Shown: positions 31,080 through 35,369 of the stretch, piece by piece
Numbering within the stretch: the stretch's first letter is position 1
How the letters are laid out: each line of letters starts with the position of its first letter
Source: Cryomorphaceae bacterium
GTDB taxonomy: Bacteria > Bacteroidota > Bacteroidia > Flavobacteriales_D > Cryomorphaceae
NCBI GenBank assembly: GCA_003565555.1
Contig: PXBH01000078.1
Location: forward strand, 1 to 60,682
Length of the DNA: 60,682 nt
Direction of reading: 5' to 3'
Made by a program: the position numbers and the translations under genes
The notes under the pieces: model-generated
The model's database searches: none
What the model saw: only the letters and a program-made list of their open reading frames with translations
Told to the model about the DNA's origin: nothing

Positions 31080-33125
31080 TCACCCCTGCTCCTTCTTCTT
31101 CACCATTGTCAGTATCGTAGCGAGCGCCACAATCTCGTCCGTTTCGTCATAGACTTCCACATAAAATTTTACGATGCCTTTGGCAATGTCTTCTTCGTCG
31201 CGTTTTTCCTGTTCGATTTTTTCTTTCACCGTGAGGCGCACTCCGATGGTCATGCCCGGGTACACGGGTTTCGTGAATCGGCAGTCTTCGAGACCGTAAT
31301 TCAGCAGTACAGGCCCTTTTTTGGCTTCCACAAAGAGTCCTGCAGCTTTAGACAATACAAAATAGCCGTGGGCCACGCGCTGCTCAAAGATGGTGCCTTC
31401 GAGGGAGGTGGCGTCCATGTGGGCATAAAAGTTATCGCCGCTTACGTTGGCAAAATTCGTGATGTCGGTTTCTGTCACCGTATGTTTGGCCGTCACGACC
31501 ATATCACCCACGGTGAGTTCTTCAAAGTGCTTTCGGAAGGGGTGGATTTCCGTTTCGTTTTGTTTGCCGCCGGGCTGATACACGTTTGTAATCCGCGTCA
31601 ATGTGGTGGGGGATCCCTGTATGGAGGTGCGCTGGAGGTAGTGCATCACGCCGCGCTTTCCGCCCATTTCTTCGCCGCCTCCGGCGCGTCCGGGACCGCC
31701 GTGCACGAGCAGGGGCATGGGCGATCCGTGGCCGGTACTTTCCTTGGCACAGTCGCGGTTGAGGATGAGGATACGGCCGTGGTGCGACGCCGCTCCGAGG
31801 GCAAATTCGCGGGCGTGGTTGTCGTTGTAAGTGGCCATGGAGCATACCAGCGAGCCCTTTCCGAGTTTTGTCAGTGCGATGGCATCTTCGAGGCTGTCGT
31901 AGGGCATCAGCGTGCTCACGGGGCCGAAAGCCTCCACTTCATGGCTTTCCGTTTTCCGGAAGGGATCACTGTTTTTCAGCAAAACGGGGGAGAGCCACGC
32001 GCCTTTTTCGGTGCCTTCACCCAGCACGTTTACCGCGTCCGGGCTGCCGAATACCAATTCCGACGACTTGAGGAGCTTGTTGATCTGCTCCCGCACGCGG
32101 GCGCGCTGCTCCGTACCTGCGAGCGCACCCATGCGCACCCCTTCGAGCTGCGGATCGCCGATTACCGTTTTTCCCAGTCGGTTGGCCAGGGCGATTTGCA
32201 CGTCTTCCATGCGGTCTGAAGGTACAATGATGCGGCGTATAGCCGTGCATTTTTGTCCGCATTTCACGGTCATTTCACGCTGCACTTCTTTGATAAACAG
32301 GTCGAATTCCGGTGAGTCCGGCTCCACATCCGGACCGAGGACTCCGGCATTCAGCGAATCTGCCTCCATATTGAAAGGCACGGATTCGGCAATGATGCGC
32401 TTGTTGACTTTAAGCATGCGGCCGGTTTCTGCGGAGCCGGTGAAGGTCACGACATCTTGAGATTCTACATGGTTGATCAGGTCGTGCGCGTCGCCGCAGA
32501 GGAGTTGGAGGGCGCCTTCCGGCAAAATTTCGGAGGCGATGATATCTTTTACAACGGCCTGGGTGAGATAGCTGCCTACGGGAGCGGGCTTTACTACGGC
32601 CGGCATGCCTGCGAGAAGATTCACGGCGATTTTCTCCAGCATACCCCATACGGGGAAGTTGTAGGCATTGATGTGCACGGCCACCCCTTCGCGCGGGGTC
32701 ATGATATGGTGGCCGGCAAAGCTTCCGCCTTTGGAGAGGGGCACGTGGTCGCCGTCTACGTAGTATGTTTCATTGGGAAATTGGCGGCGCAGGCTGCTGT
32801 AGGCAAAAAGATTGCCGATTCCGCCTTCGATGTCGATCCAAGAGTCCGTTTTGGTGGCTCCGGTGGAGTAGCTGAGCGTGTAGAATTTATTTTTTCGTTC
32901 CAGGAGGTAGAAAGCAAGGGCTTTGAGCATGCGCCCGCGCTCGTGAAAGGTCATCTTGCGCAGAGCGGGGTTTCCTTTCTCCCGGCCGTATTGCAGCAAA
33001 GCTGCATAATCGAGTCCTTCGGCGGTGGCCACGGCCACAGTTTCGCCGTTCACTGCGTTGATCAGGGGCGTTCCGTCACCGTCGCCGGCAACCCATTGGC
33101 CCATTATGTAATTTTCGAGTTTCAT
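31080..33125 (-). CDS. paaZ: Bifunctional oxepin-CoA hydrolase / semialdehyde dehydrogenase
   Basis: A 681-residue fusion that opens the ring of oxepin-CoA and oxidises the resulting aldehyde in phenylacetate degradation. An N-terminal aldehyde dehydrogenase domain (about 1-515) shows TFTGSAETGR and the catalytic Cys in VKCGQKCTAIRRI. A C-terminal MaoC hydratase domain (about 540-675) carries SGDNFYAHMD, with the Asp and His of the hydratase site, and HGYFVLSKAAGLF. The start at 33125 (MKLENYIMGQW) is the family N-terminus; the frame stays open 45 codons further upstream without support. No paaABCDE ring oxidase lies in the window. Confidence 0.93.
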   Translation of the reverse strand: MKLENYIMGQWVAGDGDGTPLINAVNGETVAVATAEGLDYAALLQYGREKGNPALRKMTFHERGRMLKALAFYLLERKNKFYTLSYSTGATKTDSWIDIEGGIGNLFAYSSLRRQFPNETYYVDGDHVPLSKGGSFAGHHIMTPREGVAVHINAYNFPVWGMLEKIAVNLLAGMPAVVKPAPVGSYLTQAVVKDIIASEILPEGALQLLCGDAHDLINHVESQDVVTFTGSAETGRMLKVNKRIIAESVPFNMEADSLNAGVLGPDVEPDSPEFDLFIKEVQREMTVKCGQKCTAIRRIIVPSDRMEDVQIALANRLGKTVIGDPQLEGVRMGALAGTEQRARVREQINKLLKSSELVFGSPDAVNVLGEGTEKGAWLSPVLLKNSDPFRKTESHEVEAFGPVSTLMPYDSLEDAIALTKLGKGSLVCSMATYNDNHAREFALGAASHHGRILILNRDCAKESTGHGSPMPLLVHGGPGRAGGGEEMGGKRGVMHYLQRTSIQGSPTTLTRITNVYQPGGKQNETEIHPFRKHFEELTVGDMVVTAKHTVTETDITNFANVSGDNFYAHMDATSLEGTIFEQRVAHGYFVLSKAAGLFVEAKKGPVLLNYGLEDCRFTKPVYPGMTIGVRLTVKEKIEQEKRDEEDIAKGIVKFYVEVYDETDEIVALATILTMVKKKEQG

Positions 33126-33310
33126 TTCGTTGACGGTTCTTGATTTCTTCAGGGCCGTGAAATTACACAATCTGCGCCACCTGAGTTGTGAATTGCTGCC
33201 TCGCGACGGCGATGACCTGCTTCTCAGTATTCTTACTGTCACCTGCGCACCCTCAGGCAAACACCCGCTCCCTGCGCCTGTGATTTCCCGATTGTTTCCA
33301 TGCCTAATTA

Positions 33311-33472
33311 GAGTCTGTCCATAAAGTCAAGTGGCCGGATCAGACTGTTCGATAGCAAGGCGCACGCAGGTCTGAAAAGCGGGGAGCCCCTACGGATGAC
33401 AGCCTGCCCGACTTCCGCAGGCGGGTTTTCAGACCAAGTGCAACGCAGATAGCGGACATTATGGACAGACTC
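33311..33472. mobile_element. MITE-like inverted-repeat element, 162 bp
   Basis: Perfect 14-bp terminal inverted repeats: gagtctgtccataa at 33311-33324 and ttatggacagactc at 33459-33472. Inside is a perfect 10-bp nested inverted repeat (ggtctgaaaa at 33369-33378 with ttttcagacc at 33426-33435) and a third short one (gcctgc/gcaggc). The flanks carry aatta on both sides (33306-33310 and 33474-33478, one base offset on the right), a possible 5-bp target duplication. It contains no transposase. The ends resemble insertion-sequence termini, so a parent element elsewhere in the genome is likely. Confidence 0.6.
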
Positions 33473-33576
33473 AAATTAACACCCGGCATTTGCGCAGATT
33501 TGCCTCGTCTCCACCCGGTGATGATTACGGGCTGCACCCGCAAGGATGGCTCTGATCGGATATTCAAAATCAGAAT

Positions 33577-33584
33577 TAACTTTG
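33577..33584 (+). promoter_or_regulatory. -7 box at the start of glsA
   Basis: TAACTTTG matches TAnnTTTG and ends 6 nt before the GTG start at 33591, consistent with a leaderless or near-leaderless mRNA. It lies 105 nt after the end of the MITE-like element. No -33 box was seen. Confidence 0.4.
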
Positions 33585-33590
33585 CGCGCT

Positions 33591-34412
33591 GTGGCCTCAG
33601 AGAAGTATATCGATATCAAAAAGGTGATTGCCGAGAAAAATCCCCGTCTGTCCGCATGGATGCCGGGGTTGATTCTGCGCTATATCAGACGTATTCTCCA
33701 CGAGAATGAGATCAACGATTTTATGGCGCGCAACGGTCAATACCGCGGAATGCCCTTTGTCGAAAAAATCTTCGAAGAATTCGGGATCGAGGTGAAAGCA
33801 GTGGGAGCGGAGCATATTCCCCGCCAAGGGGGTGTGATTCTCGCGGCCAACCATCCCCTCGGCGGGCCCGATGCCCTTGCCCTTATGCTCGTGCTCAGTC
33901 GTGTGCGGACAGATTTTAAGTTTTTGGTGAATGATGTACTGAACAACATCACCAACCTCGCACCCCTTTTCGTACCTGTGAATAAGCACGGCGGGCAGGC
34001 GCGAGAATTTGTCGAAAAGATCGAAGAGGTCTATGCTTCAGACGGCGCTGTACTTATTTTTCCGGCAGGACTCGTATCCCGAAAGCAGCGCGGTCGTATA
34101 GAAGACTTGGAGTGGAAGAAGAGCTTTGTGGCCAAAGCACGGCGCTATGCGAAGCCGGTGGTGCCCGTTTTCATCAGCGGTCGCAACTCCGATTTCTTTT
34201 ACAATTTGGCTAACTTGCGTAAATCACTCGGTGTAAAGGCCAATATTGAGATGTTTTATCTGGCGGATGAAATGTACAAGCAGCGAGGTAAAAAGATTAA
34301 GGTGTATTTTGGCCCTTGCGTAGCGCCGGAGGTTTTTGACAAATCAAAAACGGACGCAGAATGGGCTGAAGTGATCAAGAAGCGGGCCTATGCGCTCCCG
34401 AACGAAGAGTAA
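33591..34412 (+). CDS. glsA: Lysophospholipid-type O-acyltransferase, probable GlsA
   Basis: A 273-residue PlsC-type acyltransferase, start GTG at 33591 (translated MASEKYIDIKK). The catalytic motif is NHPLGGPD, with His and Asp five residues apart rather than the usual four, as I recall for Bacteroidota homologues, and the second block is FPAGLVSRK. In Bacteroidota this family works with a GNAT-like partner to make glycine or ornithine lipids: the partner adds a 3-hydroxy fatty acid to the amino group and this enzyme esterifies the hydroxyl. The partner gene follows after 6 nt. The specificity (glycine or ornithine) cannot be read from sequence. Confidence 0.85.
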   Translation: MASEKYIDIKKVIAEKNPRLSAWMPGLILRYIRRILHENEINDFMARNGQYRGMPFVEKIFEEFGIEVKAVGAEHIPRQGGVILAANHPLGGPDALALMLVLSRVRTDFKFLVNDVLNNITNLAPLFVPVNKHGGQAREFVEKIEEVYASDGAVLIFPAGLVSRKQRGRIEDLEWKKSFVAKARRYAKPVVPVFISGRNSDFFYNLANLRKSLGVKANIEMFYLADEMYKQRGKKIKVYFGPCVAPEVFDKSKTDAEWAEVIKKRAYALPNEE

Positions 34413-34418
34413 CGAACT

Positions 34419-35369
34419 ATGAGAGAACCCATAGCGCCTGTGAGCAGGGATTTGTTGGAAAGTGAGCTGACCCGAGAGCGGTTTCTTCGTCACACCAATT
34501 TCGGCGGTAACCGCATATACCTCGTAAATCACCACAATGCGCCGAATGTAGTACGAGAGGTAGGCCGCTTGCGCGAAATTTCCTTCCGTGCGGGAGGCGG
34601 CGGTACGGGTAAGGAGCTCGACCTCGACATCAATGACACCTGCGAAAACTGTTACGATCAGCTTATCGCTTGGAATCCTGAAGATCGGGAAATCATCGCG
34701 GGCTACAGACTCATAGAATGTGCGCGGGCAGGTCTCAAAGATAACGGAGAGGTCAACCTGTCCACCTCGCATCTTTTCAATTTTTCCGAAAAGTTCAAAC
34801 GCGACTACCTACCGTACACCATCGAGCTGGGCCGATCTTTTGTACAGCCGGCATACCAGCCCGGCACGGGCGGACGCCGAGGTCTGTTCTCACTCGATAA
34901 CCTTTGGGACGGTCTGGGCGCCTACGTGCTGATGCGCCCCGAGATCAAATACCTCTTCGGGAAGGTGACCATGTACCCCCACTTCAACCGCCGCGGCCGC
35001 GATATGCTGCTCTGGTTCCTCAAGCGCTATTTCCCCGATCATGAGCAACTTGTTACCCCGATCGCACCGCTTGAATTTTTCGGTGATACCGGCGATTTCG
35101 AACCGCTGTTTTCCGGAAAAGACTATAAAACGGGGTACAAATTGCTCAATGCTGAGCTGCGCGGCATGGGGGAAAACATTCCTCCGCTCATCAATACCTA
35201 TATGAATCTTTCACCGACCATGCGGACATTCGGTACGGCCCTCAACGATGAGTTCGGGGAGGTGGAGGAGACGGGCATCCTCATCACCGTGGGCGATATC
35301 TACGAGACGAAGAAAAGCCGACATATGGATACCTTCGATCGGGACCGAAGTTGGCACAAAAACGACTGA
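34419..35369 (+). CDS. glsB: N-acyltransferase, probable GlsB (OlsB-like)
   Basis: A 316-residue GNAT-like acyltransferase of the OlsB/GlsB (hemolysin-like) family, predicted to transfer a 3-hydroxyacyl group to the amino group of glycine or ornithine. Family marks are EVGRLREISFRAGGGGTGKE, IDLDINDTCENCYDQLIAW-type acidic stretch, and ELGRSFVQPAYQ. Later blocks MYPHFNRRGRDMLLWFLKRY and VTPIAPLEF are typical of the Bacteroidota form. It lies 6 nt after glsA. The order glsA then glsB is reversed from what I recall of Bacteroides, where glsB comes first. Confidence 0.85.
   Translation: MREPIAPVSRDLLESELTRERFLRHTNFGGNRIYLVNHHNAPNVVREVGRLREISFRAGGGGTGKELDLDINDTCENCYDQLIAWNPEDREIIAGYRLIECARAGLKDNGEVNLSTSHLFNFSEKFKRDYLPYTIELGRSFVQPAYQPGTGGRRGLFSLDNLWDGLGAYVLMRPEIKYLFGKVTMYPHFNRRGRDMLLWFLKRYFPDHEQLVTPIAPLEFFGDTGDFEPLFSGKDYKTGYKLLNAELRGMGENIPPLINTYMNLSPTMRTFGTALNDEFGEVEETGILITVGDIYETKKSRHMDTFDRDRSWHKND

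Follow-up and report, generated by a model that had tools for sequence, protein, structure and literature searches.

A miniature transposable element with ISNCY_1-type ends and a probable ERIC-type hairpin core upstream of glsA in a Cryomorphaceae bacterium

The window analysed here is a stretch of 60,682 nt from a Cryomorphaceae genome. It contains a 162-bp element (33311..33472, + strand), which carries no gene, has exact 14-bp inverted ends and lies between the divergent paaZ and glsA–glsB genes. On one side, paaZ (31080..33125, − strand; TIGR02278, 918.3 bits) is given an assumed ATG start, and the profile scan used 31080-33143. On the other side are glsA, encoding a lyso-glycine lipid O-acyltransferase (33591..34412, + strand; NF053697, 359.7 bits, cut-off 260), and glsB, encoding a glycine N-acyltransferase (34419..35369, + strand; NF053696, 490.9 bits, cut-off 300). 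The GTG start of glsA is assumed, and an ATG at 33546 is also possible. A possible promoter box ahead of glsA, TAACTTTG (33577..33584, + strand), is a putative match to the Bacteroidota −7 consensus; it begins 105 nt past the last base of the element, exactly the spacing given in the initial annotation.

Both 14-bp ends GAGTCTGTCCATAA (33311-33324, + strand; 33459-33472, − strand) are exact, as had been proposed for an element of 162 bp, and they are the sole places in the window with fewer than three mismatches to this motif. The arms together with their flanks are 92% complementary across 24 nt, and the element strand folds far more stably than its shuffles (z −6.1 as DNA, −5.8 as RNA). From left to right, a target-duplication copy TAATTA (33305..33310, + strand) is followed by the left outer terminal repeat GAGTCTGTCCATAAAGTC (33311..33328, + strand), a transposon end of the ISNCY_1 type, and by an inner-left arm (33331..33356, + strand), an end-like copy which pairs with the right end in a conserved hairpin according to covariation and the alignment to model R1 described below. 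The internal-loop motif AAGGC (33357..33361, + strand), conserved in alignments and model matches, precedes the upper stem, whose left side GGTCTGAAAA (33369..33378, + strand) folds onto the right side TTTTCAGACC (33426..33435, + strand) around a variable tip (33379..33425, + strand), enlarged here in comparison with the family size peak of 142-143 bp. The second conserved loop motif AACGCAG (33442..33448, + strand) is followed by the right terminal repeat GAGTCTGTCCATAATGTC (33455..33472, − strand), which doubles as the outer strand of that hairpin, and by a right target-duplication copy AAATTA with one mismatch (33473..33478, + strand). A possible duplication had been given as AATTA; the duplication itself stands, but it is 6 bp long (TAATTA and AAATTA, 5 of 6 bases matching, in line with the 6-bp duplication across the family), with AATTA inside it. 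Between 33311 and 33472 there is no ORF as long as 80 aa, and thus the element has no transposase of its own of the ISNCY_1 type (NF033593).

In its own genome (G000; a 3.72 Mb draft in 237 contigs, 96.7% complete) 25 BLAST pieces match the element, and the 14-mer end with at most one mismatch occurs at 17 places, the control pattern at none. Twelve copies have both ends (by eye): seven carry an identical 6-bp duplication, three, including the window copy, differ by one base, and two (L007 and L015) have flanks which do not match over 6 bp. Copies that lack one end or have a decayed one, on contigs C157, C67, C58, C96, C124, C44 and C150, were omitted. L015 is missing from G002, where the orthologous intergenic region measures 203 bp against approximately 400 bp and is too diverged to give an exact joint. 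When flanks were compared by BLAST with the fetched loci, the matches were to tandem copies or between repeats, and none was an orthologous empty site.

Copies are present in all three genomes of the genus and in five of eight genomes of the family (the own genome being counted in both), and in 6 of the 150 genomes of the order sample. Among named genomes, TANNTAGWGTCTGTCCATAAWGTC occurs in at least 118 stretches, nearly all from MAGs; by title, the matches listed belong to Bacteroidota, Nitrospirota, Treponema and other Spirochaetaceae, Ignavibacteria, Chlorobiota, Delongbacteria, Caldiserica and Neomarinimicrobiota. The exact end pattern was found in no stretch of IMG/VR and, among 296 genomes of the phylum sample, in the own genome only; in that sample NF033593 scored above its cut-off in five genomes and gave any match at E 0.001 in 75.

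Sizes of 148 paired elements peak at 142 bp (21 elements) and 143 bp (33 elements); this list had been pre-filtered for near-matching TANNTA flanks, and duplication counts from it were not used. A second set of 140 non-redundant end pairs, 100-330 bp apart and without the flank filter, showed identity over exactly 6 bp in 98 pairs and over 7 bp in none, against 15% after random re-pairing. The base just outside the target is C or T on the left in 117/140 and G or A on the right in 112/140, giving Y-TANNTA-R; because many of these loci were fetched with TANNTA in the pattern, this caveat touches the target motif more than the match of flank to flank.

Several variants of the basic layout were also seen. 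Tandem copies, in which neighbours share one 6-bp TANNTA site, are typically 148-149 bp apart (L249:870-1307, L243:1898-2188, L060:1223-1514, and L229, L230, L236 and L207). The tips of some copies are enlarged by small palindromic modules (GACAGGCTCAGG-like, CCCGCC...GGCGGG and GTTGACTTAAGTCAA-like), up to about 600 bp between ends (L006:1-290, L145:511-820, L143:1047-1658). G004 has stretches of 612 bp and 408 bp between end pairs without an evident gene (by eye). Nitrospirota and Treponema elements (L156, L159, L203, L162, L215) have the same ends and target and, by eye, different interiors, with no match to model R2, described below.

Concerning the transposase, two insertion sequences carry the same kind of ends. 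The first (L158, Ignavibacteria) is 2004 bp long, is flanked by TAATTA on both sides and encodes a 443-aa transposase. The second (L273) is in G001, a genome of the same genus as the window: the end GAGTCTGTCCATACAGTC, set in a TACATA site, precedes the gene of a 455-aa transposase, and the other end, GAGTTTGTCAATAA (− strand), is followed by TA and then by the contig stop, which leaves one flank readable. Both transposases score above the NF033593 (ISNCY_1) cut-off and are 65% identical to each other. The own genome, at the completeness of its draft (96.7%, 237 contigs), has no NF033593 match at E 0.001. Among 18 transposase loci searched for ends, those of the window type were matched only in L158. 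L228 was considered as a second parent and rejected: its transposase is above the cut-off (327 vs 325), but the flanks TATTTA and TAAATA are not a duplication. A different locus, L296:1338-3014, combines a transposase with GGGTCTGCTGA ends, and its 6-bp duplication is likewise TAATTA.

Sequence comparison thus demonstrates a link between ends, target and transposase, and the window element has the terminal repeats and the 6-bp TANNTA target of ISNCY_1. Since insertion sequences with the same ends and an ISNCY_1 transposase occur both within the genus and in one genome of Ignavibacteria, we class it as a MITE, presumably moved in trans. It has the usual MITE traits: it is shorter than about 300 bp, has terminal inverted repeats but no transposase, is present in several scattered copies flanked by target duplications, and shares its ends with an autonomous element. 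The initial annotation had described a small non-autonomous element, and both of the things whose absence would speak against this, further copies and a possible parent, were found. The element represents a new MITE family of a known kind; the open-access literature gave no description of these ends or of ISNCY with a MITE.

The interior was compared in alignment A2, which holds 40 rows from 44 unique elements of 138-150 bp; L155 (misaligned) and the near copies L075, L080 and L084 were left out. Model R1 was trained on A2, which contains the sister copies L003 and L004 from the genome of the window, the window copy itself being absent. In A2 the right end pairs with the inner copy of the left end, starting about 20 nt inside, and the outer-left end lies outside the fold. 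RNAalifold on A2 gives 31 pairs, 21 of them with two-sided changes. Covariation between inner arm and right end is 0.441 vs 0.177 in shuffled alignments, none of 500 being as high, and slid pairings give no more than 0.101; between outer-left and right end it is 0.051 vs 0.070 shuffled. For one of the five covariation measures, that of further pair types, the value falls within the range of the shuffles (126/500 reach it). Paired columns change on both sides (36-139: UA 23, AU 16; 44-131: AU 16, UA 16, GC 4). Hairpin pairing, strand and loop motifs (AAGGC, GGAG/TGA, AACGCAG) are conserved, and a single copy would not have revealed this core. Against the full-length R1 model the window copy reaches 104 bits, with an enlarged tip and 5 of 31 pairs broken; its scores with R1 and with R3 (below) are partly dependent, as sister copies of its own genome are among the training rows. 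By title, R1 members outside Bacteroidota are L221 (Delongbacteria, 136.8 bits) and L217 (Chlorobiota, 106.2 bits); L226 (Caldiserica by title, 104.6 bits) is interrupted by a contig end. In the cultured Marinilabilia salmonicolor, the copy L219 scores 62.5 bits.

Template switching at imperfect palindromes is an established process, and replication errors which repair palindromes could be the source of some paired changes without selection. Were this the whole explanation, the element would be an ordinary MITE whose hairpin is a by-product of the inverted ends and whose core has no function, a reading with which the intergenic location of the copies (0/97 within a long ORF, by a simple ORF caller) and their lack of orientation bias agree. 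Homogenisation of this kind should, however, remove mismatches, and yet columns 39-136 keep a U.G wobble (T.G in DNA) in 40/40 aligned copies and columns 58-117 a mismatch in 38/40. G.U cells also far outnumber A.C cells, which is not expected of a double-stranded process (100 vs 8, in 11 columns vs 7, and 32 vs 8 without the two fixed columns, on a pair layout set by hand). Together with the persistence of the core between unrelated ends, described below, this makes a functionless by-product improbable. Gene orientations around the 77 copies flanked by genes on both sides are evenly spread (20, 16, 22 and 19), so a role fixed to one mRNA strand is not favoured.

A local role was considered as well, in which the element acts as promoter, terminator or insulator of glsA–glsB and is retained at this site for that reason. 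Its strong fold and its place between paaZ and glsA, ahead of the possible promoter box, would suit such a regulator, but the window copy is partly decayed in its pairing, sister copies stand at other loci, and the putative box is downstream of the element, so that the hairpin would be outside a glsA transcript started there. We therefore hold retention as a glsA–glsB regulator to be very improbable. At the glsA site of relatives, G001 gives a 28% match, G006 is 46% identical and G002 is interrupted by a contig end.

The same core is also carried between different ends, judging from the loci matched by the models. Across 395 phylum genomes, with eight candidates scored per genome, R1 matched 33, of which 30 are in one family and weak (best 42 bits). 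In the 30 loci chosen there as R1 matches, in another Bacteroidota family than that of the window (L333-L352, L359-L368), the core lies between GGGCAYCTCT ends. Ends were called in 26 of the 30, poorly in two (L342, L352), and 20 of these 26 elements are 142 bp long. An identical 4-bp duplication occurs in 13/26 against 0.76 expected after re-pairing, and none is longer. Alignment A3, with 25 of the 30 loci, folds alike independently (51 pairs, 31 with two-sided changes). G350 and G515 have further end types, with three loci each. One copy of the other-ended type (L330:44-449) has a cobalamin riboswitch (RF00174, 66.9 bits) at a distance of 2 nt.

Model R2 was built from 22 of the 25 A3 rows (A4), that is from the GGGCAYCTCT-ended type only. 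It recovers 24/24 chosen type-A loci (weakest E 0.042) and 0/10 control loci; the window element is not listed at E 0.1. R2 also gives 105.7 bits to a locus on a Comamonas plasmid and 58-63 bits to four loci of E. coli, Yersinia and Aeromonas. BLAST with the GGGCAYCTCT-type core (86 bases) matched 5375 of 5426 E. coli genomes at a median of 3 places, with rows of about 60 bases, up to 73% of the query, among the matches listed; 18 plasmid and 13 phage records were matched too. Our first guess that this E. coli repeat is ERIC was ruled out. It is a second enterobacterial and Aeromonas repeat of about 100 bp, with the same core (L369, L370, L372, L373; R2 58-63 bits). We found no description of a change of ends around one core in the open-access literature.

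ERIC repeats have been used in typing for decades. The ERIC, IRU or RU-1 repeats of enterobacteria have a consensus in Table 1a of PMC2759123, with which the loci fetched by the ERIC core agree by eye; in the accessible portions of that paper ERIC is 127 bp long, with TATAC ends and a TA duplication, and no transposase is named. Model R3 comprises 44 aligned cores (A5), without ERIC and without the window copy and with the sister copies L003 and L020 from the own genome; covariation in A5, which was fitted to the R2 structure, is 0.631 vs 0.204. R3 finds four of five ERIC loci (38.4, 32.5, 27.8 and 22.4 bits; window 50.7 bits) and, at E 1, none of 20 control loci; these were chosen by us as lacking the core, and R1 matched several of them weakly (about 20-29 bits), which is taken to rest on shared ends. 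In the displayed R3 alignments, which cover three of the four ERIC loci found, AAGGC, the GGAG/TGA hairpin and AACGCA all fall in register and on the same strand. Under R3 the window element likewise has the motifs and the fold of the ERIC core, in a single register and on one strand. Where the calibration of a model was shortened, its E-values are rough.

Other models find ERIC less readily. With filters off, R1 scores the five ERIC loci weakly (29.3, 20.8, 11.9, 9.8 and 6.9 bits), and R2 finds one of five (19.9 bits). The sequence-only type-A profile gives 8.4-11.9 bits in four of five and nothing in the fifth, and a sequence-only GGGCAYCTCT-type profile does not find ERIC. These modest or absent scores, including the 10-12 bits which R1 alone gives to E. 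coli ERIC, would fit convergence, in which two unrelated hairpin MITEs have a few short motifs in common. Against it, the type-A profile scores of ERIC are above all shuffles of one ERIC stretch, whether 300 dinucleotide shuffles (top 3.7) or 300 pair-preserving ones (top 2.5), and the R3 alignments keep the motifs in register on the same strand. We regard convergence as rather unlikely, while giving it more weight than the two alternatives discussed above. The open-access literature gave no description linking ERIC with other phyla or placing an ERIC-type core on ISNCY_1 ends.

Our preferred reading, to which we assign a probability of roughly 0.7, is that of a two-layer MITE: ends moved by ISNCY_1 and a conserved ERIC-type hairpin core, which likely works as a folded transcript. 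In the outer layer, GWGTCTGTCCATAAWGTC ends would be recognised by an ISNCY_1-type (NF033593) transposase, probably provided in trans by an insertion sequence that shares these ends, with insertion at Y-TANNTA-R and a 6-bp duplication. The payload would be an imperfect hairpin of about 120 nt with conserved pairing, loop motifs and strand; what appears to be the same core is found between GGGCAYCTCT ends in other Bacteroidota and also in Pseudomonadota, with ERIC as a more distant occurrence. Its conservation would most likely come from a strand-specific folded transcript, with selection acting on the RNA fold. By analogy with ERIC in Yersinia, for which an effect on mRNA stability is reported (PMC2229807), read-through into an mRNA may let the hairpin alter the stability of that mRNA, and copies could thereby persist in intergenic space.

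A broader proposal, on which we consider the odds even, is that Bacteroidota and Pseudomonadota share a single folded module, ancient and about 100-120 nt long, with ERIC as its enterobacterial branch. At least two transposon systems which are clearly unrelated (6-bp and 4-bp duplications), three with ERIC (TA), would have carried it, and the module, not the transposon, would be the unit under selection. If the same core does ride different transposon ends across phyla, its conservation is a property of the core itself rather than of any single transposase, and exchanging ends and cores becomes a way to test what it does. Two papers of 2007 (PMC2229807, PMC2759123) give the mode of movement of such repeats as not established. 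The version linked to ISNCY_1 offers a concrete transposase candidate and, if the reading holds, makes a mobility system for ERIC-type elements directly testable.

In Rfam the window element has no match at E 1, and none of eight type-A loci has one at the gathering threshold. The Xanthomonas small RNA sX9 (RF02228) overlaps the core in ten loci (L329-L332, L362, L369-L373) at 25.8-40.9 bits, below its curated score of 44 in all ten and on the opposite strand; no such overlap is present in L328, L353 and L356, and a link of sX9 to such repeats was not described in the open-access literature. ERIC loci L374-L376 match V_AS5 (RF02818) below threshold (46-47 bits vs 96), and the V_AS5 family may include ERIC copies. 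This suggests that some small-RNA entries which overlap core loci below threshold, such as sX9 and V_AS5, may be copies of mobile repeats.

Compared with known systems, the L158 and L273 ISNCY_1 insertion sequences share with the window element terminal repeats of the same kind and a TANNTA-type target, but they are about 2.0 and 1.6 kb long with a transposase gene, and beyond the ends their interior is unlike the MITE (by eye). RUP of pneumococcus, with ends matching IS630-Spn1 (PMC2229807), and MITECca01 of Cardinium, with ends matching an IS982-family insertion sequence (PMC9769881), resemble it in that the ends match an identified insertion sequence, whereas the IS families differ from ISNCY_1. 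The GGGCAYCTCT-ended repeats have the same core and strand and nearly the same length, but other ends and a 4-bp instead of a 6-bp duplication. ERIC is like the window core in being an intergenic imperfect palindrome with the AAGGC loop, GGAG-hairpin-TGACTG and CCAACGCAG on the same strand and a match to R3. The window element differs from ERIC, as given in PMC2759123, in length (162 vs 127 bp), ends (GAGTC vs TATAC) and duplication (6 bp vs TA), and its host, unlike those of ERIC, is neither an enterobacterium nor a vibrio.
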